The notes under the pieces: generated by a model
What the model was told of the DNA's origin: nothing
The model's database searches: none
What the model saw: only the letters and a program-made list of their open reading frames with translations
Shown: positions 8,550 through 53,382 of the stretch, one piece after another
Position numbering within the stretch: position 1 is the stretch's first letter
Layout of the letters: each line of letters begins with the position of its first letter
Program-made: the position numbers and the translations under genes
Source of the DNA: Rhodospirillaceae bacterium
GTDB taxonomy: Bacteria; Pseudomonadota; Gammaproteobacteria; Steroidobacterales; Rariloculaceae
Length of the DNA: 64,000 nt
Direction of reading: 5' to 3'
Assembly: GCA_002718345.1 (NCBI GenBank)
Contig: PBDA01000016.1
Coordinates: 1 to 64,000, forward strand

Positions 8550-9443
8550 ATGAATACGACTACAGAAAAGATACTTGTACTTAATGCTACGGGCAAGGCT
8601 GGAGGCAATGTTTGCCGTGCATTGATTGAATCAGGGTTTGATGTATATGGCACAACCAGGGCAAATAAAAAATCTCTGGTTGATAAGGGCATCAAACCGG
8701 TGTTGTGTAATTACACAGTAAGGTCCGATATTGAAAAAGCCCTTCAGCAGACTGGTGCTAAGAAAGTCTTTGCGATGACCGATTATTTTGGTGCGGCTAA
8801 ATCAAATGCTGATGAAGAGATTCGCCAGGGACAAAATGCTATTAATGCTGCCAAGGCTGCCGGTGTGGATCATTATATATTTATGAGTGTTGCAGATGCT
8901 GAATTTTTTAACGAGCATGTTAAACACTTAAAAGCAAAACCTATTTTAGAGCAATACCTGCATGATTCTGGTATTCCATATTCAATTCTTAGGCCCTGCG
9001 CATTTTTCGAGAATTTTGATGATCCCTCAAATTGGAATCCATTAAAAAAAGGTGTGGTTAAGTTTTTAACAGACAAAAATTGCAAATACTGCGCAACCTA
9101 TGACATTGGTCGTGCTGCGTCTATTTGCTTTAAAAATCCTAGTGATTGGCTTGGTAATACTCTTGACGTAATTGGTTGGCAAGGAAACTTGTCACAGGTG
9201 GCTGAAGCCTTGTCTAAGGTCAGTGGAATTCCTGTAAAAGCTAAATTGGTAATGCCAAAATTTTTACGTAGCTTATTTCTTAAAGATTTGCATCACATGT
9301 TTTTGTATTACGAGGTAGAAAAAGGACCGAGAGGAACTCCAGAGGATTTTAAAAAAATCTTACCAGATGCCTTATCAGCAGAAGATTGGTTTCGCTTTCA
9401 TGGACAATATTCAAATGGAGAAAAGATTATTGTTGAGAGGTAG
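8550..9443 (+). CDS. NmrA-like NAD(P)-binding protein
   Basis: The 297-residue cytoplasmic protein starts with a Rossmann motif, NATGKAGGNV, a variant of the GxxGxxG loop of atypical short-chain dehydrogenases. It is followed by YGTTRANKKS, where the arginine suggests NADP binding. Downstream, AAGVDHYIFMSVADA and YSILRPCAFFENF match the NmrA/HSCARG family, where the catalytic Tyr-x3-Lys is usually lost. Such proteins act as redox sensors or as reductases of small substrates. It is a lone gene, divergent from the SMR transporter. Confidence 0.8.
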   Translation: MNTTTEKILVLNATGKAGGNVCRALIESGFDVYGTTRANKKSLVDKGIKPVLCNYTVRSDIEKALQQTGAKKVFAMTDYFGAAKSNADEEIRQGQNAINAAKAAGVDHYIFMSVADAEFFNEHVKHLKAKPILEQYLHDSGIPYSILRPCAFFENFDDPSNWNPLKKGVVKFLTDKNCKYCATYDIGRAASICFKNPSDWLGNTLDVIGWQGNLSQVAEALSKVSGIPVKAKLVMPKFLRSLFLKDLHHMFLYYEVEKGPRGTPEDFKKILPDALSAEDWFRFHGQYSNGEKIIVER

Positions 9444-9468
9444 TACATATTAAGAGGGAAGAGGATTG

Positions 9469-9714
9469 TCATTCATTCACCCACTCTCTACAACCGCTAT
9501 TGCCGTTAACGTCAACAGTTGCTGTTTGACCAGCTAATCAAATTGTTCTCCCACCCTGTGTTGAGACGGCGCGTGAAAAAGCTGGTAATTCTCCACGTTC
9601 ATCGATGACATACTCCTTTTCTACAGGATCAGCAATGGCTATAACGGGAATAAATATCGCAATAAGAAGACAAGCTAATTTTTGTAGTTTTTCTTTAAGA
9701 TTTTCATAAGTCAC
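9469..9714 (-). pseudogene. Decayed exported RidA/YjgF-family gene
   Basis: Reading from GTG 9714 gives a hydrophobic signal sequence ending near AIAD. It continues as a typical exported RidA N-terminus, ending in PAFSRAVSTQGGRTI. The next codon, 9538-9540, is TGA where related proteins have Trp. The frame then continues LAGQTATVDVNGNSG, clearly still RidA family, and ends at 9469 after 22 further codons. The remaining two thirds of the domain is missing. It therefore has a nonsense mutation plus a 3' deletion. A functional exported RidA relative is present at 6719-7165. Family recognition rests on the GGRTI(W)LAGQTA strand pattern. Confidence 0.7.
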
Positions 9715-9842
9715 TCTTGGTTTGATAGTTATGAGTTTAATTTGTTAGTGATATCCTATAAATAGTATTGAATTAAGGTGTTTTAGTTTGAAGTTTTTCG
9801 AATATTAGTTGTTAGTCTGAGTAGTTATAGAACCAAAAAAAG

Positions 9843-10067
9843 ATGGAGAGTCTGATTTTTACTAAATTAATGAGAATGCTAGGGATTGTTTTTTTCTTTT
9901 CTGGCGTTTTTGTTGTTATTTTTTTTCTTGCGTTATGGGTTACAGGAAATTTAGCTTATGGTCTTCTTCTTGTAGCCATTTTATGCTGGATATTCGCTTT
10001 TTTTATATTTACGGTTCTACAAACTCAAATCAAAAAAGACTGTGTAGAAATTAAAGAGAAGATGTAG
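9843..10067 (+). CDS. Small two-helix membrane protein
   Basis: The 74-residue protein has hydrophobic helices at about 11-34 and 37-59 and a charged tail (QTQIKKDCVEIKEKM). The ATG at 9843 follows an A-rich stretch with no clear Shine-Dalgarno. Its last 17 bases overlap the end of the convergent M48 gene. No family is recognised. Confidence 0.5.
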   Translation: MESLIFTKLMRMLGIVFFFSGVFVVIFFLALWVTGNLAYGLLLVAILCWIFAFFIFTVLQTQIKKDCVEIKEKM

Positions 10068-10821
10068 ATTTTGTTTGAAGTTCCTTTATTGCATTATCAA
10101 ATTGAGCAAGACGTTCGGGGCCAACTGGATGAGTATCAAAAAAAGAAGATCTTGTTCTCGCGTCTTCATTATTTTTTGCCATATGCAATATTACTTCTCT
10201 AGCTTGAGTTAAATTAAAGTTGGCAGCTGAGAGTATGTGTATTGCAATAAGGTCTGCTTCTGATTCTTGTGCTACAGAATAGGTTTGGTTAGCAATGTAG
10301 CCACCTGCATTTGCCCCCGTATCAACATCACCAGCAATAACAGCACCTAAAACGGCACCTACCAATCGGCCTACTAAAATATTAGTGCTGCTTTCATTAA
10401 TATGATTGAGTATATGATGGCTCAGTTCATGTGCCAGGACCAAAGCGACTTCATCAATATACAAAGTTTGTTCAATTATTCCTTTATAAATAACTATCTT
10501 GTCCGATCCGGTAGCATAGGCGTTAAATTCGTTATTCTCTTCAACCGTTACTTGCCAGTTTCTGCATGATGCACTACTTCTTTCCGACAGGTCATTGCAC
10601 ATGGATTGTGCTTTTGGTTTTAATTGTTCCATCACGCGCTCAATAATAGCTCTTGCTTCAGGCATAGATACGCTTTTTGTTGGTCTGAGGCTCGCTGAGT
10701 TTATTTCATTAATAGCACTTGAGATGTTCTCGTTTGTAGGTGCAGGCAACCGATAAGATGGGGCGGTACAGGCAATTAAGAGCACAAATAATAGATAACA
10801 AAAAGTGTGTCTAAATTTCAT
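10051..10821 (-). CDS. M48-family lipoprotein metalloprotease
   Basis: From ATG 10821 (preferred over 10845 because it gives a compact signal with lipobox LLIAC, Cys18) the product is 256 residues. The zinc-protease signature is His131-Glu132-Leu-Ser-His135. The third ligand is Glu186 in QESEAD, and Arg/His residues of the C-terminal THPVGPERL complete the site. It is a periplasm-facing peptidase of the BepA/LoiP/YcaL type, likely acting in outer-membrane protein quality control. It is closely similar to the truncated gene at 2-481 but lacks about 20 residues in the linker. The copies lie on opposite strands. Confidence 0.92.
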   Translation of the reverse strand: MKFRHTFCYLLFVLLIACTAPSYRLPAPTNENISSAINEINSASLRPTKSVSMPEARAIIERVMEQLKPKAQSMCNDLSERSSASCRNWQVTVEENNEFNAYATGSDKIVIYKGIIEQTLYIDEVALVLAHELSHHILNHINESSTNILVGRLVGAVLGAVIAGDVDTGANAGGYIANQTYSVAQESEADLIAIHILSAANFNLTQAREVILHMAKNNEDARTRSSFFDTHPVGPERLAQFDNAIKELQTKSTSSL

Positions 10822-17245: not shown

Positions 17246-18682
17246 ATGAACATACCGAAAAAGTGGTTTACAGCTTTTATTTTTTCAGTGAATGGAATGG
17301 GTTTTATTGTTAATGCTAATGAGGCTCTTAATATTGAGCTTGTTGGGTACCATCATTTGCAGGGACGTCAAGCTTTGCAGGTAACTACAAAATCAGATAC
17401 AACAAATGGTAATTGGGTCTACATTGGACATGTTCCGAATACACGTACTCAAGAGGCCACGATGAATCCGATTACCGGTCAAAATGAATGGAACGGTACA
17501 TCTATTCTAGATATATCAGACCCTAAAAATCCTGAGCTTGTATGGCATATACCTAATGAGAGACATGCAAACTCACGTTTTGTTAGCGTTGTATATGACT
17601 ATGAGTTTGATTCAGAGCCAGCAGGAAGGGACTACTTAATACGAAATTCAGAAATTGGCGAAGACTTAAGGTTTCAGATTTTTGATATTACCGATAGATC
17701 CTCAAATCCATCAGCTATTTCATTAGTTTCAGAAATTTCAGCAACACCTGAAAACTCCTGTGGTATTGGTTGTGGGGGCAAGCTCATTAATCGTGCTCAT
17801 AAAGGTCATTGGTCGCCAGAAAGTGGTCTCTTCTACAGTGCTTCAGGTGAACCAGGATTTCGTACGACAATTATTCATATATGGAATCTAAGAGATCCTA
17901 GCGATCCTCAGTTTGTTGGTAGGGCTTGGTTGCCTGGACAGAAAGACGAGGAGGAGGGGTTTGAGGAACAGTATGTACATCATCCCATTGTCGATGAGGA
18001 AAATAATCGAATGTATGCAGGTTTCAGAATTGGTAGTGGGCATGTTGCTTCTTGGGATATCTCAGACCCATCTGAACCCTCCTTAGTTTGGTCCTATGAT
18101 ACTTCTCCACCGGGTAGAGGCCCTCACACAGTATCACCCATTCAATACAATGAAGTTCCTAATGTAACAGCTGCTGATGGCGAGTTACCAAGAACCTACG
18201 CTTTAGTGACAGATGAGTATGACGGATTAGAATGTCCACATGGCATGAAAAGCCGTGTTTATATGTTTGATATTACACATGAAAGCAATCCTATGCCCGT
18301 ATCTACATGGCAAGTTCCTATAGGTAAGTTTTGCGAAATTGGTGGCAATTTTGGGCCTCATCAACATGCCGAAACGGTTAATGGACAGATCAACCGGTTT
18401 GAGGATAAGATCGCTTGGATCGCGTACCTCAATGCAGGCATTAGGGTTCTAGACCTCTCAGATCCACAAAACCTTCAAGAGCTTGGTTATTACATTCCAA
18501 TTACGAATGCCACACCACGTCCTTCAATGGCAAGGCCAGTACCGATTCAGCTGACCGATGTTGATATTGATCATCGAGGCCTTGCGTATGCAACAGATCG
18601 TTCGGGGGAATCGTGTGTTGGGCAAGTGACCTCGTGTGTGGGAACGGGATTGTTTGTTTTAAAATATATAGGTAGAAATTAA
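17246..18682 (+). CDS. Exported LVIVD-repeat beta-propeller protein
   Basis: The 478-residue protein has a signal peptide (cleavage near VNA-NE) and repeated blades of the form (T)SILDISDPKNPELV, VASWDISDPSEPSLV and IRVLDLSDPQNLQEL, the LVIVD signature. It contains the conserved metal-rich stretches GPHTVSPIQ and GPHQHAETVNG. LVIVD proteins are periplasmic or surface propellers of unknown activity. It is paralogous to 51736-53193: both open with the pattern L-x-G-Y-x-x-LQGR and share NPITG-x-x-E-x-NGTSI. It is probably in an operon with the DUF3187 and cytochrome c genes downstream. Confidence 0.85.
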   Translation: MNIPKKWFTAFIFSVNGMGFIVNANEALNIELVGYHHLQGRQALQVTTKSDTTNGNWVYIGHVPNTRTQEATMNPITGQNEWNGTSILDISDPKNPELVWHIPNERHANSRFVSVVYDYEFDSEPAGRDYLIRNSEIGEDLRFQIFDITDRSSNPSAISLVSEISATPENSCGIGCGGKLINRAHKGHWSPESGLFYSASGEPGFRTTIIHIWNLRDPSDPQFVGRAWLPGQKDEEEGFEEQYVHHPIVDEENNRMYAGFRIGSGHVASWDISDPSEPSLVWSYDTSPPGRGPHTVSPIQYNEVPNVTAADGELPRTYALVTDEYDGLECPHGMKSRVYMFDITHESNPMPVSTWQVPIGKFCEIGGNFGPHQHAETVNGQINRFEDKIAWIAYLNAGIRVLDLSDPQNLQELGYYIPITNATPRPSMARPVPIQLTDVDIDHRGLAYATDRSGESCVGQVTSCVGTGLFVLKYIGRN

Positions 18683-47710: not shown

Positions 47711-47887
47711 TTAGTCAGAAGATTCCTTATTTGGAGAAAGAGGTATCAAAATTTGATTTGAGTAAACTCTCTTGGAAACGATTAAACAATGACCTTCACT
47801 AACGGGATATCTATCCAAAATTACAAACCCAACAGAATTCTCAAAAATGTGTTCCCTGTCATCAAAAAATGGACTGTCATTCGTCAT
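47711..47887 (-). pseudogene. Truncated HIT-family gene
   Basis: From ATG 47887 the 58-residue product has FFDDREHIFENSVGFVILDRYPVSEGHCLIVSKR, the N-terminal half of a HIT (nucleotide-hydrolase/transferase) domain. The sequence then diverges and stops; the histidine triad HxHxHxx that defines the active site is missing. It overlaps the end of the DUF3427-HNH gene by 11 bases. I regard it as a decayed gene rather than a functional short form. Confidence 0.5.
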
Positions 47888-48835
47888 TGTTTTCAGATAA
47901 CTCCTCAAACTTCTTTCTGTGTTTTTTGAGATATTTTTTCATACCTTTTGAGATCTCAATTTTTATGTGATCATTTAATCCAAGTCTTTCTAAATTATCT
48001 TTATTTACATTTTTAGAAACTAAAATTTCTCCGGTATCCCTAAAAGATATAATGTGTCTGTCAAATAATGAATCAAATAAAGGTGACAACAAGATACCAT
48101 TTTCAACATCTAATCGTTCCTCGTCATTAGATTCTGACCAGGGAACAATATGAGATGAAATCAAAATAGATTTAATGTTAATACCTGTTACAGGACATTT
48201 CCCTCCCCATTTCTCAATAATTTGTTGTCTGTAATATCCTTGACCAACTCTAGAGGTTACTAATCCTTTTCTTTCTGTAGTGTTTGGTTTTTTATAATTC
48301 TTTTTTCTTTTTTTAGAAATAACACCTTGGTTTGATATTTTTGATCTTGTGGTCTTTCCAATAGAAGAAGGTTTCCATAAATAAATGTCCATGAGGTCAT
48401 CGTTTTCGGTGTAATCATCATAATCAACGTTCTGATATATCATATGAACAGGTCTAGAGGTCCCTATCTCATATGACAAGTAGGTCAACCTTCCACAATA
48501 TACAAAAGGTTGAGTAACGTTTTTTATTTTGGGTGAAATTCTAACGAAAAGATGTGGAATCAAATTACCGTTTACAATTTCTTTTATTTTTGGACTTTCA
48601 ATATGTTGGGTTGTTTGGGAATCCCAATGAAAAAATCACCTTCAAAAAAGTCATCAAAATGAAACCGTGACTCCTTACCTTTCTTTTCTAAATCAACAAA
48701 AAATAAAGAGGAATTAGAGTTTTTTAAATTATAAATTCCCTCTCTGACCAAAGAAATATTTGGTTGATCTAATAAGGTTGATAGATCTTTTTTGGAATAT
48801 TTATCTCCGACTTTTAATTCTTGATAGGGATCCAT
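47877..48835 (-). pseudogene. Frameshifted DUF3427 + HNH endonuclease gene
   Basis: The first part (48584-48835) reads DPYQELKVGDKYSKKDLSTLL to HFDDFFEGDFF, then goes out of frame at a run of six T (48630-48635 in plus coordinates). Adding one T restores HWDSQTTQHIESPKIKE joined to the downstream ORF (48563). This gives a 319-residue protein: DUF3427-like N-terminus (YTRxD-type start, F-x-W-x-SQ, LFVRI, PFVYCGRLTY) and a C-terminal HNH nuclease (WGGKCPVTG, ILISSHIVPW, NGILLSPLFDSLFDRHIISF). It is either a real frameshift or a sequence error. Confidence 0.75.
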
Positions 48836-48908: not shown

Positions 48909-50189
48909 TTACTCTTTAGATAGGTAAGCAGTGGTTCCCTCTGGTGATTCATACCAGCCCGGGTCACTGTAATCGTTATGAGATTGTTCAGCACGAACTT
49001 TAAAAACTGTAAACATGCCGCCCATTCCTATTGGCCCATAAGGCCCTTCACCTGACATCATGGGAAGGGTATTTTCAGGGAGCTCCATGTTCATGGAAGC
49101 CATTTCAGCCATGCCCTTGTCTCCCATAACCATATACCCTGGTATAAGACCCCTGAGTTTTTTTGCAGCCTCTTCAAAGTTAACGCCAATAGAGGTTAAA
49201 ACATCATGGCTCATTGCGTTCATTGTGTGATGTGTTTTATGACAGTGAAAGGCCCAGTCTCCCTCTGAATCAGCAATTAGTTCAATTACACGTACTTGTC
49301 CCACACCGATATCAATTGTGGCTTCTGGCCATCGTGCAGTTTCCGGAACCCATCCCCCATCAGTGCCCGTGACTTCAAAAGAGTGACCATGTAGATGTAT
49401 AGGGTGATTCGTCATTGTTAAATTGCCAATGCGTATTCGTACCCGGTCTCCTTGTCGTACGTTTAGCGAAGAAATGCCAGGAAATACACGGCTATTCCAT
49501 GTCCATAAATTAAAATCTGTATGAGTATTTACACGCGGTGTATAGCTACCCGGCTCTATGTTGTATGCACTCATTAGGAAGGCAAAGTCTCTATCAACAG
49601 ATAGAGTGTTGGGGTCTTTGGGATGGACTATGATTAGCCCCATCATGCCCATAGCCATTTGGACCATCTCATCCGCATGAGGATGGTACATAAAGGTCCC
49701 GGCATGATTCATATCGAATTCATATATCCATGTTTCTCCAGGACGGATGGCAGGCTGCGTAAGACCTGCTACCCCATCCATGCCATTCGGTACACGAACT
49801 CCATGCCAGTGAATTGTTGTGTACTCAGGTAGTTTGTTGGTAACAAAGATACGTACACGGTCGCCTTCTACACATTCAATTGTTGGCCCTGGTGATTGTC
49901 CGTTATATCCCCAAAAATGTGCTGCCATGCCTGAAGCAATTTCGCGCTCAACTGGTTCTGCTACAAGATGAAATTCTTTGATCCCATCGTTCAAGCGCCA
50001 TGGTAATGACCAGCCATTTAGTGTTACTACAGGTTTGAACGGGCTACCATTTGGAGGAGAGGAGGGTGGTGCTGTTACTGGGGACGTTGAGGATGTGGGT
50101 TCTGGTATCTGACCAAGAGCCCCACGGGGTACTGCACTAGCACTTACAAGCGCAGTAGCACCGGAGAGAAAACTCCGACGAGATATCAT
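48909..50189 (-). CDS. Tat-exported multicopper oxidase
   Basis: The 426-residue protein has a twin-arginine signal (ISRRSFLSGATAL). Copper motifs are TTIHWHGVRVPNG and FMYHPHADEMV (trinuclear site, domain 1), and NHPIHLHGHSFEV and FHCHKTHHTMNAM (domain 3, with the HCH and Met of the type 1 site). It oxidises phenols or metals using O2 in the periplasm. It is the last gene of the operon 48909-53193. Additional Met-rich sequence (MVMGDKGMAEMASMNMELPENTLPMM) near the C-terminus suggests copper handling. Confidence 0.92.
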   Translation of the reverse strand: MISRRSFLSGATALVSASAVPRGALGQIPEPTSSTSPVTAPPSSPPNGSPFKPVVTLNGWSLPWRLNDGIKEFHLVAEPVEREIASGMAAHFWGYNGQSPGPTIECVEGDRVRIFVTNKLPEYTTIHWHGVRVPNGMDGVAGLTQPAIRPGETWIYEFDMNHAGTFMYHPHADEMVQMAMGMMGLIIVHPKDPNTLSVDRDFAFLMSAYNIEPGSYTPRVNTHTDFNLWTWNSRVFPGISSLNVRQGDRVRIRIGNLTMTNHPIHLHGHSFEVTGTDGGWVPETARWPEATIDIGVGQVRVIELIADSEGDWAFHCHKTHHTMNAMSHDVLTSIGVNFEEAAKKLRGLIPGYMVMGDKGMAEMASMNMELPENTLPMMSGEGPYGPIGMGGMFTVFKVRAEQSHNDYSDPGWYESPEGTTAYLSKE

Positions 50190-50216
50190 TTAAAGTGCTG
50201 CCTAGATTTAATTAAT

Positions 50217-51446
50217 TTAGTGCACATGATAGGTCGCTACTGGCCGAAAACCATTCTGTTGCCCTTGTTGTATTGAAACGGCCGATACTCCAACACCAGC
50301 CATGGCTCTTTGTAATTCTACTTCGGCAAGCCAAAAAACTTTCATTGCTTCTAGTGCAGAATTTACGGCATCAATTCTTTCAGTAGCATCTGTTACCAAG
50401 TCAAACACCCCGACGAGCATGCCGTTATATAGTTTAAGTTGTTCTTCTGATCTACGATTAGCCAGTGGTACTATTTCATTAATTGAAAGTGTTGCTAGAT
50501 CATATGCTCCACGATAAGCCAACCAGGCAGTACGCACATCAGCGCGTGCATTTACCCCTGCTTCCCCTGATAAACCTTCTAACCTTCCTGCATGAACATC
50601 AAAACGTTGAGAAACAGCTCGAGCCTCTAACCCTTCTGGACCTATGACGGAACGTGGAATTTCTGGAAGTCTATCGGGTAGCTTTACAGAATCAGCATCA
50701 TCGCCCCAAAGACCAAGCACTTGAACAAAGCGTTCATATTCGACAGCAGCAGTGATTTCGAGAGTCACTAGAGTTGTAACAGCATCAGCATAAAGTGTTT
50801 GTGCACGAAGTAGTTCTAACTCGGTTGCATTACCAACTTGACGCATGCTCTCCATGATTTCACGACCAGCTTCCAAGGCAGTCACTACATCTTTGTAATA
50901 CTGCACGGCTTGTTTGGCTGCTACAGCATTAACCCAGGATCTTTTTGCAAGAAACAGTAGTGCAACTATTTCATCTGCTGCCCGAATGCGGCCAGAACGT
51001 TCTTCTAATGTTCCAATAGGATTTAGAGCCGGCATAATTACCCATGTCATTGCGTTCACAGAGCTCATGCGCTCAATTCTTGTTTCCATGGTGCTTGGTG
51101 GCCGACCTCTGTTGAAATTTGGGTTAGTGATATGCACAAGTTGTAGACGATCAAATCCAGGCATGCCGAGGGTTTCAAGAGCACGCTCTATAAGAGGATT
51201 ATGGAGTAGTGCTAGTTCTGCAGCTGACTCAGCATTTAGTTCTGAGCTAAGTATTTCTTGTTCCCTTTGTGTTCGACGAATAATCAGAGCTTCTTGTTCT
51301 GGACTAAGTTCAGGCCGCTCTTCAAATCGAATACCAGTCGGATTACTTTCAACAGACATCGGTGGAGATACTGAGACACAACCGGAGATGAGTAAAAAAC
51401 CGATTATGCTCAGATTAAAAAATGCGCGGATTTCGCGCACCTTCAT
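50217..51446 (-). CDS. TolC-like outer-membrane factor lipoprotein
   Basis: The 409-residue protein has lipobox LLISGC (Cys 22) and a TolC/OprM-type helical barrel pattern with two repeat halves (SAAELALLHNPLIERALE, then QVGNATELELLRAQTLYADA; second half DVRTAWLAYRGAYDLATLS, LKLYNGMLVGVFDLVTDATER). The NPLI/Asn-Pro and GNATELE patterns are characteristic of outer-membrane efflux proteins. It forms a trimeric outer-membrane channel. No RND or MFP subunit is adjacent. It is coupled to the upstream gene by a 4-bp overlap. Confidence 0.88.
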   Translation of the reverse strand: MKVREIRAFFNLSIIGFLLISGCVSVSPPMSVESNPTGIRFEERPELSPEQEALIIRRTQREQEILSSELNAESAAELALLHNPLIERALETLGMPGFDRLQLVHITNPNFNRGRPPSTMETRIERMSSVNAMTWVIMPALNPIGTLEERSGRIRAADEIVALLFLAKRSWVNAVAAKQAVQYYKDVVTALEAGREIMESMRQVGNATELELLRAQTLYADAVTTLVTLEITAAVEYERFVQVLGLWGDDADSVKLPDRLPEIPRSVIGPEGLEARAVSQRFDVHAGRLEGLSGEAGVNARADVRTAWLAYRGAYDLATLSINEIVPLANRRSEEQLKLYNGMLVGVFDLVTDATERIDAVNSALEAMKVFWLAEVELQRAMAGVGVSAVSIQQGQQNGFRPVATYHVH

Positions 51447-51736
51447 TGTTCAATCTCAGTCGTATGCCCTTCGTGAGTACTCTCATGATCCATATTAGAA
51501 TGGTCCGGCTGGACTTGATCAGTATCATGACTTGAAATAATAGGCCAAGAAACCGTTATATCTTCTAAGTTCTTGTAGTGACCCATCAAGCTGTCATATC
51601 TAAGTATTGCAGATGGGGTAGAGGGATCAGCAGCCTCAAAACCCTCCCAATGCGCTATGGAGGGGAAGGGTGCCAGGATACCGCCAAAGAGAATCATAAT
51701 CTTAAAGCTGATATTTTTTGTTGATCTCAGTCTCAC
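51443..51736 (-). CDS. Histidine-rich exported small protein
   Basis: The 97-residue protein has an N-terminal hydrophobic signal (ISFKIMILFGGILAPFPSIA). The C-terminal tail is rich in His/Asp/Glu: SSHDTDQVQPDHSNMDHEST and HEGHTTE. That tail suggests metal (copper) binding. The start overlaps the LVIVD gene stop by one base and its end overlaps the TolC-like gene by four, so it is in the operon. No known family. Confidence 0.7.
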   Translation of the reverse strand: MRLRSTKNISFKIMILFGGILAPFPSIAHWEGFEAADPSTPSAILRYDSLMGHYKNLEDITVSWPIISSHDTDQVQPDHSNMDHESTHEGHTTEIEQ

Positions 51737-53193
51737 TAGAATTCCGCAATATCACGAGCTGAACCTGTTAACTCAACAATATGAAGCCCCGTATTAGCTC
51801 TGTCTACTGCATAAACATAGCCTCTATCATCGACCTCTAGATTGTTTGTTTGAATAGCTCTTTTACAACGTTCAGCACCATCTACATTAATACAGCGCTG
51901 AGTGGTTCGTTCGTTGATTGCAGGAATGTAGTACCCAATTTCTTGTGGTGACCATGGATCCCTTATATCTACTGCACGTATACCGCCATTGAAATAGGCA
52001 AGAAAGACAATTTTTCCATAATAAATTGGCGTCATATTTTCATTTGATGAATGGGTACCAAATCGACCGCCACGCTCACAGAAATTCCCACTTTCTTCTG
52101 GAACCTGGAAATTCCCAACTGGCCATGGTTTTGTTTCATCTGTGATATCAACCATGTACATCATTTGCCGATTTTCTAGGCATTCATTGCGTAGTGACTC
52201 ACCAACGACTAAAAGCATGTCTCGAGTTCGACCTTCAGAGTTATCAGCAAATTCAGGAATATCCATACCTAAAACAGGGAATGCAGTGTGTGCGCCCAGA
52301 CGAGGACCAGTGAACATAGTAGTAATTACTGGATACTCTAGGTTTTCATCTGTCGGCTCAAAAGGATTATCGATAGCCGGGTTGCCACGAAGGAGTCTCT
52401 CTCTGTCTACTATCTGGATAACCCCATCAAGAAATGTGCCATAACCAAAATAAATTCGATCATCAACCACTATTGGACCATGAAGATCATATTTAGCCAT
52501 TTCATCAAATTCTGGTGCTCCTGGTTGTTGTCCGGGGAGACCAAAATTTCTAATAAACTGTGGCTCAGCTGGATTTGATAAATCATAAACCTGAGTCATA
52601 CGGCGTGTGGCCCAGGTTTCCACCCCTGAGACTAGATAGGCAATTCCGGTATTACATTCCCACCAATTTTTATGTGTATCTATAAGACCAGTTTCTTCCA
52701 TTGATGAAACAAGAGTTGGCGCCTCTGGAGCAGTGACATTCCAGACTTGGTGACCATTAGATCCAACAGCACGCAATAAGTATGTTTCAGTGTCAATTCC
52801 ATCAGGAAGATCGCTACCCAAGCATGTCCGTACCATTTGCGCTTCACTTACTTCGCCTTCAATGTTTGTTCCTGGGATATGAGCAAGATATTCGGGATTA
52901 CCTGGGTCGGTAACATCAACGATAGATGTGCCATTGCCCTCTTGCCTACCTGTTATTGGGTTTTCATGATTACCAACATGATGACCAATATAAGCGATCC
53001 AGCGATCACCCTGCTGTTGAATTATCGGTTGATAGGCGCTACGCCCTTGCAGGTCGTTATAACCAATGAGCTGCATGTTTAGAGCTTCTTCTCCCTCAGT
53101 TGGGTCCTGAGCCAGTACATAACTGCCTGTAGATACCAGTATGATTACCAAGCTGCTTAGAAATAAGCGTTCAAAACATTGTGATTGCAGCAT
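51736..53193 (-). CDS. Exported LVIVD-repeat beta-propeller protein
   Basis: The 485-residue protein has a signal peptide (cleavage near VLAQ). LVIVD blades include TSIVDVTDPGNPEYL, TQVYDLSNPAEPQFI, YMVDITDETKPWPV and IRAVDIRDPWSPQEI. Conserved histidines appear in HHVGNHENPITG, LHGPIVVDD and FGTHSSNEN. It is the first gene of the four-gene operon down to the multicopper oxidase and is paralogous to 17246-18682. The family has no proven activity; here the context suggests a metal/redox-related surface role. Confidence 0.87.
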   Translation of the reverse strand: MLQSQCFERLFLSSLVIILVSTGSYVLAQDPTEGEEALNMQLIGYNDLQGRSAYQPIIQQQGDRWIAYIGHHVGNHENPITGRQEGNGTSIVDVTDPGNPEYLAHIPGTNIEGEVSEAQMVRTCLGSDLPDGIDTETYLLRAVGSNGHQVWNVTAPEAPTLVSSMEETGLIDTHKNWWECNTGIAYLVSGVETWATRRMTQVYDLSNPAEPQFIRNFGLPGQQPGAPEFDEMAKYDLHGPIVVDDRIYFGYGTFLDGVIQIVDRERLLRGNPAIDNPFEPTDENLEYPVITTMFTGPRLGAHTAFPVLGMDIPEFADNSEGRTRDMLLVVGESLRNECLENRQMMYMVDITDETKPWPVGNFQVPEESGNFCERGGRFGTHSSNENMTPIYYGKIVFLAYFNGGIRAVDIRDPWSPQEIGYYIPAINERTTQRCINVDGAERCKRAIQTNNLEVDDRGYVYAVDRANTGLHIVELTGSARDIAEF

Positions 53194-53382
53194 TCCCCAC
53201 TCCTAAATCATTAGTTTTTATGTGATACGACTTTCGAACAGTGAATCCCACATGTCAAGCCATGATGAGTTTAAATGTTATGTTTCATTGCAACATTATT
53301 TTGTCATAAGGCATAGTTTCTGTCCGGTCTTGATATAATTTAGAGTATCAATAGTCTTCCTAATACCTATAAGACACATGTT

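Follow-up and report, generated by a model that had tools for sequence, protein, structure and literature searches.

A probably barrel-less TolC-like lipoprotein and an LVIVD propeller in a lineage-specific variant of a widespread copper-detoxification cassette

RESULTS

The locus and its source genome

The window, by which we mean the whole 64 000-nucleotide stretch of DNA that was analysed, is part of contig 7 of a gammaproteobacterial MAG (2.29 Mb, 86% complete), whose closest relative is the public MAG UBA6522 with a protein identity of 96–100%. Four genes on the minus strand, together with a promoter-like site, make up the locus under study:

51736..53193, minus strand: LVIVD/phosphotriesterase-like seven-bladed β-propeller, 485 aa, predicted signal peptide
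51443..51736, minus strand: small exported protein, 97 aa, GTG start
50217..51446, minus strand: TolC-derived lipoprotein, 409 aa, lipobox Cys23
48909..50189, minus strand: two-cupredoxin-domain multicopper oxidase, 426 aa, twin-arginine signal
53230..53258, minus strand: promoter-like site TTGACA-N17-GAAAGT, upstream of the LVIVD gene

All four open reading frames have the coordinates given in the original prediction, which described the genes as overlapping or abutting. This is correct for two junctions, namely the 1-bp overlap of the LVIVD and small-protein genes and the 4-bp overlap of the small-protein and TolC-like genes, but the TolC-like and oxidase genes are separated by a 27-bp gap.

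Beyond the oxidase, a DUF3427 fragment and an HNH_2 open reading frame (window positions 47877–48835) precede a DUF6152 gene. In the relative G019 (locus L078) the DUF6152 gene follows ∼40 nt after the oxidase, so that ∼1.2 kb was either inserted in the window or lost in G019. Three relatives of the same genus carry a calcineurin-like phosphoesterase gene 3′ of the oxidase on the same strand (L080, positions 9290–10150, with homologues at L081 and L082), which might be a fifth operon gene in those genomes.

The four genes form one conserved unit

We searched 22 genomes of the source's GTDB family and found the order LVIVD, small protein, TolC-like protein, oxidase in 10/10 genomes that have the TolC-like gene (source genome included); outside this family, one Arenicellaceae genome shows the same order. 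The genes flanking the operon differ between genera and are common only to close relatives, so a linkage of the four genes by chance is out of the question. Together they form a real, single conserved unit on the minus strand, in line with the single transcription unit proposed originally. A scan of named genomes placed the operon at ten loci, nine of the source lineage and one of Arenicellaceae, which are exactly the ten where the LVIVD protein is at least 74% identical. At 70 other LVIVD loci (identity of at most 61%), neither TolC nor the oxidase was found within up to 8 kb on each side. Occurrence of the genes apart in most relatives, which had been named as evidence against the unit, is therefore confined to LVIVD proteins outside the operon clade. 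Misassembly was excluded, the TolC-like gene having the same length in ten genomes and at locus L101, and a phage origin was set aside because the oxidase is not covered to 80% by any phage record.

Comparison of the relatives also revealed the promoter-like site, which a consensus promoter scan had passed over because of its weak −10 element. The pattern TTGACA-N17-RAVAKT lies upstream of LVIVD in 9/9 family members with upstream sequence and is absent at the Arenicellaceae locus; it occurs in 0.06% of shuffles, a rate that serves as a guide only, as these very sequences had served to define the pattern and close relatives are non-independent. With its 17-bp spacer the site is not of the CueR type, so copper induction of the operon is only putative.

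The oxidase belongs to a widespread copper cassette

Pfam confirms the multicopper oxidase, with Cu-oxidase_3 at residues 82–192, Cu-oxidase_2 at 217–333 and no middle domain. The Tat signal that had been predicted for it is visible by eye as SRRSFL, although the Pfam TAT_signal match falls below its cut-off. The copper-ligand motifs HWHG, HPH, HPIHLHG and HCHxxxHxxxxM are intact and invariant in the clade, giving a complete type 1 and trinuclear set. The C-terminal part is Met-rich and resembles CopA-type proteins (the best NCBIfam match is TIGR01480, far below cut-off), while the nearest solved relatives include laccases. In a tree of 69 oxidases the operon clade falls inside a 48-row group with 100/100 support.

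Plasmids of Burkholderia, Massilia, Bradyrhizobium and Pseudoalteromonas carry 'copper oxidases' that are 66–69% identical to the oxidase of the operon; in each case the gene immediately upstream encodes a TolC protein, and genes for cupredoxin, CopC or CopD are close by. In a survey of the phylum and the order, nearly all of 54 loci had TolC as the next gene upstream of the oxidase, and members of the oxidase subfamily are found in copper islands alongside genes for CopC, CopD, cupredoxin, P-type ATPase and CusA. On plasmid pSymA of Sinorhizobium meliloti (CP140936.1), the gene order is small protein, TolC, oxidase, azurin-like protein and copper-binding protein, and the oxidase there is 63% identical to ours over 422 aa. 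This S. meliloti 'MCO operon' (Omp, CueO, azurin-like protein, chaperone) is reported to be highly expressed on copper, and oxidation of Cu(I) followed by export across the outer membrane has been proposed for it (review, PMC6266702). A transposon screen for copper tolerance in Bradyrhizobium likewise found a tolC and a multicopper oxidase (PMC5057107), which may be the same pair. The small protein, TolC and two-domain copper oxidase are thus an already known cassette found across Pseudomonadota, of which the window operon is a variant, and the earlier statement that no system of this composition had been described does not hold, given the copper-induced S. meliloti operon.

The small exported protein has a conserved core (EAADPxTPxAxL) and a variable His-rich tail. 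The tail had been called His/Met-rich; its last 45 residues contain six His, in agreement with the first half of that description, but only one Met. The small proteins upstream of TolC in the wider cassette have weak sequence similarity to the window's protein and share with it a loose DPxxP...Y.S...W pattern, from which the latter appears to be their counterpart. In genome G128 this region is fused with the N-terminus of the TolC-like protein.

The TolC-like protein has lost membrane-spanning structure

Between residues 290 and 300 there are 11 residues in the TolC-like protein, against 68–88 in more than 50 homologous partners, and no member of the clade has the ∼65 residues that bear the second membrane β-hairpin. 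Within the missing stretch lies the 'GYEIELALPIFDWGG' motif, which the profile of full-length partners aligns with the CmeC channel (4mt4), in the region that forms strands S3–S4 in this family. This match came from a PDB sequence search with the full-length partner profile; the short TolC profile had returned designed-protein noise only. Pfam OEP gives one partial match, covering profile positions 104–186 of 187 (the helical half of one repeat), whereas full partners have two repeats. The first β-hairpin is retained in the sequence. An AlphaFold2 model, calculated for the window protein as a single chain, consists entirely of helices with no strand (pLDDT 81, pTM 0.79), and its nearest folds in Foldseek are VceC, OprM, TolC and CusC with E-values of about 1e-6.

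The gene is not a decaying remnant. A frame-broken TolC gene was excluded, as the reading frame is intact in all members and under purifying selection (dN/dS ∼0.15), and the lipobox cysteine (Cys23) is invariant. Genomes G128 (L255, 3126–4295) and G1006 (L259, 5533–6720) encode a TolC-like partner of the same oxidase that is without both hairpins and the lipobox. The oxidase tree sets the operon clade apart from the G128/G1006 pair, with 100% support for each of the two, and both lie among oxidases whose TolC partner is full-length. The loss of both hairpins in this second lineage was independent.

The TolC-like protein has therefore lost most or all of its membrane-spanning part, and from the model it is probably an outer-membrane-anchored helical lipoprotein rather than a channel. 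The operon also contains no pump partner (RND, MFS or ABC plus adaptor). An outer-membrane channel, and with it an outer-membrane exit of the operon's own, had been part of the original prediction. This exit is unsupported because the second membrane hairpin is missing and the protein is predicted to be all-helical, and it is the least likely part of that interpretation.

The LVIVD propeller resembles a metal-dependent phosphotriesterase

To our knowledge, hardly any functions have been described for the LVIVD family, one phosphotriesterase being the exception. The window protein scores 20.0 bits against the LVIVD Pfam model, just under the 20.2 cut-off, and its AlphaFold2 model is a confident seven-bladed β-propeller (pLDDT 88). 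The top Foldseek match is the Sphingobium TCM1 phosphotriesterase 5hrm (E 1.7e-19; next unrelated match 1.4e-9), an enzyme that sequence profile searches also find. By VIA, the model matches 5hrm with a Z of 30, covering 377 residues with 21% identity; generic propellers give the same Z over ∼320 residues at 8–10% identity.

We take the metal ligands of 5hrm to be H258, H389, H475, E201 and E407, and residue types at these positions agree with the phosphotriesterase sequence used for alignment, a plasmid homologue that is 99% identical to the 5hrm protein over the 102-residue fragment searched. Four alignment methods match H258, H389 and H475 to H174, H302 and H381 of the LVIVD protein, all three of which are invariant in 27 LVIVD homologues. 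The glutamates are less clear: a single method pairs E117 with E201, the position holds Glu in the operon clade alone, and E332 was placed near E407 by hand. Six Cys and four inner-strand His (H174, H238, H302 and H381) are invariant in the operon clade. In the DSSP string these histidines begin the inner strands of successive blades, which in the predicted model suggests a metal site in the central channel. The protein had earlier been considered a possible surface partner; given the 5hrm fold and the ligand-position histidines, an enzyme-like propeller that binds metal is the likelier reading.

The LVIVD gene was added to the cassette in this lineage specifically, and the protein is as conserved as the oxidase. 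Two further paralogues are found in the source genome, one in the window (17315–18607) and one elsewhere (G000:C15:47337–48713), with 39% and 46% identity to the operon protein; they were recovered with the protein as query, while the short Pfam profile found nothing. A Betaproteobacteria MAG has four LVIVD propeller genes close together (L099, 8001–15499).

Other copper genes of the source genome

Searches of the 86% complete source MAG found no second multicopper oxidase (PF07732 matches only the operon gene), no P-type ATPase (PF00122) in its 2.29 Mb, and no RND pump above cut-off (one PF00873 match of 26.2 bits, below the 28-bit cut-off); one other TolC-family gene is present. The absence of a P-type ATPase is unusual in that all 14 control genomes have one. 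A CusCBA/CopAB locus elsewhere, which would have offered another explanation of the genes, was accordingly not found among the RND, multicopper oxidase (PF07732) and P-type ATPase families searched. As no other copper system was found, the results are suggestive of the operon being the main recognisable copper defence of the source MAG, though at 86% completeness other copper genes may be missing.

DISCUSSION

A model for the operon

A periplasmic role in copper oxidation and detoxification, as first proposed for these genes, is still the best reading, considering the identity to the S. meliloti copper oxidase and the shared gene order. By this analogy the most likely role of the operon is periplasmic Cu(I) oxidation on a TolC-derived scaffold. 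We propose that the oxidase would be exported folded through Tat and turn Cu(I) to Cu(II) in the periplasm, where the small protein, and perhaps also the C-terminal His of the TolC-like protein, may hand over or buffer copper. The TolC-like lipoprotein would export nothing; it would be a helical scaffold, anchored in the outer membrane, on which the oxidase or the small protein docks. The LVIVD propeller would be a periplasmic metalloprotein, hydrolase-like or copper-using, whose gene may have joined the unit in the ancestor of the source lineage. Taken as a whole, a lineage-specific variant of the copper-induced MCO operon with a lipoprotein scaffold and a periplasmic metalloprotein is our best explanation, and we give it roughly an even chance. 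Several points count against it. LVIVD relatives in other settings show no linkage to copper genes, so the role of LVIVD may be unrelated to copper; the site in front of LVIVD is not CueR-like; and the window operon has neither the azurin-like nor the copper-chaperone gene of the S. meliloti operon.

The TolC-like protein could instead act in a classical copper exit, still forming an outer-membrane pore for oxidised copper by way of one hairpin, a larger oligomer or another partner. The retained first hairpin and lipobox would fit such a pore, as would the full-length homologues in the cassette, which look like true TolC-type channels, and the Omp/CueO proposal for S. meliloti is a precedent (PMC6266702). 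Against this stand the loss of the second hairpin region throughout the clade, the strandless model, a sister lineage that does without both hairpins and the lipobox, and the lack of a linked pump gene or of any RND match above cut-off in the source MAG; we consider a surviving exit quite improbable. A different reading makes the oxidase a laccase acting on organic substrates and the propeller a hydrolase of an organic ester, with copper tolerance secondary. Laccases among the solved relatives, a propeller with the fold and metal-ligand histidines of a hydrolase, and other hydrolases nearby in genus relatives all point this way, but the oxidase subfamily resides in copper islands and the Met-rich C-terminus is reminiscent of CopA-type proteins, even if the TIGR01480 match is far below cut-off. 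We regard this pathway as unlikely, if slightly less so than the exit.

LVIVD may also be a mere passenger, brought by chance under the same promoter with no functional link to the copper cassette. Relatives that occur alone in other genomes, and the two paralogues elsewhere in the source genome, are compatible with this. Selection on the linkage is suggested, however, by the 1-bp overlap, by the unvarying first position and by conservation of the operon in 11 genomes, which span several genera and one other family. The protein is also conserved as strongly as the oxidase, leaving chance association about as improbable as a surviving exit. Returning to the scaffold model, the broader possibility is that on two or more independent occasions a TolC-family channel was stripped of its barrel and put to use as the helical partner of a periplasmic copper oxidase, and that in the source lineage a metallo-propeller of phosphotriesterase fold also joined the complex, as a new subunit for catalysis or metal delivery. 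We hold this tentatively, at a little under an even chance. In the open-licence literature searched, we found no description of repeated TolC barrel loss beside this oxidase or of a recruited phosphotriesterase-fold propeller. Should this prove right, the TolC-family protein encoded next to this copper oxidase throughout Pseudomonadota might not serve, or not only serve, as an exit duct, and a subgroup of LVIVD propellers would gain its first functional setting. With barrel-less versions available in nature, one can ask directly by experiment if copper oxidation and tolerance need no more than the helical part.

Comparison with known systems

E. coli CueO and Pseudomonas CopA are periplasmic Cu(I) oxidases. 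The window oxidase shares with them the multicopper oxidase family, complete copper-ligand motifs, a Tat-type signal and a Met-rich region, but has two cupredoxin domains rather than three and lies far below the cut-offs of the CueO and CopA models. The TolC-like protein is akin to the outer-membrane factors TolC, OprM, CusC and CmeC in its Foldseek neighbours, its OEP match and a lipobox as in NodT-type members; it differs from them in having one partial OEP repeat, a deleted second hairpin, an all-helical model and no linked pump. For the propeller, the Sphingobium TCM1 phosphotriesterase (haloalkylphosphorus hydrolase, 5hrm/5ioj) is the best match in both sequence and fold, with three ligand His conserved, and Pfam assigns both proteins, weakly, to the LVIVD family. 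The structural identity is nevertheless ∼21%, and the Glu ligands are not securely mapped in the window protein.

At the level of the gene cluster, plasmid copper-resistance islands (hypothetical protein, TolC, copper oxidase, cupredoxin/CopC/CopD) resemble the operon in their oxidase and in the TolC gene directly upstream of it, whereas their TolC is full-length (∼30% identical), LVIVD is absent and extra copper genes are present. In the S. meliloti MCO operon the genes for the small protein, TolC and the two-domain copper oxidase follow one another as they do in the window. In the window, by comparison, the place of the azurin-like and chaperone genes is taken by DUF3427/HNH fragments and the DUF6152 gene, TolC is without its second membrane hairpin, and an LVIVD propeller gene leads the operon.
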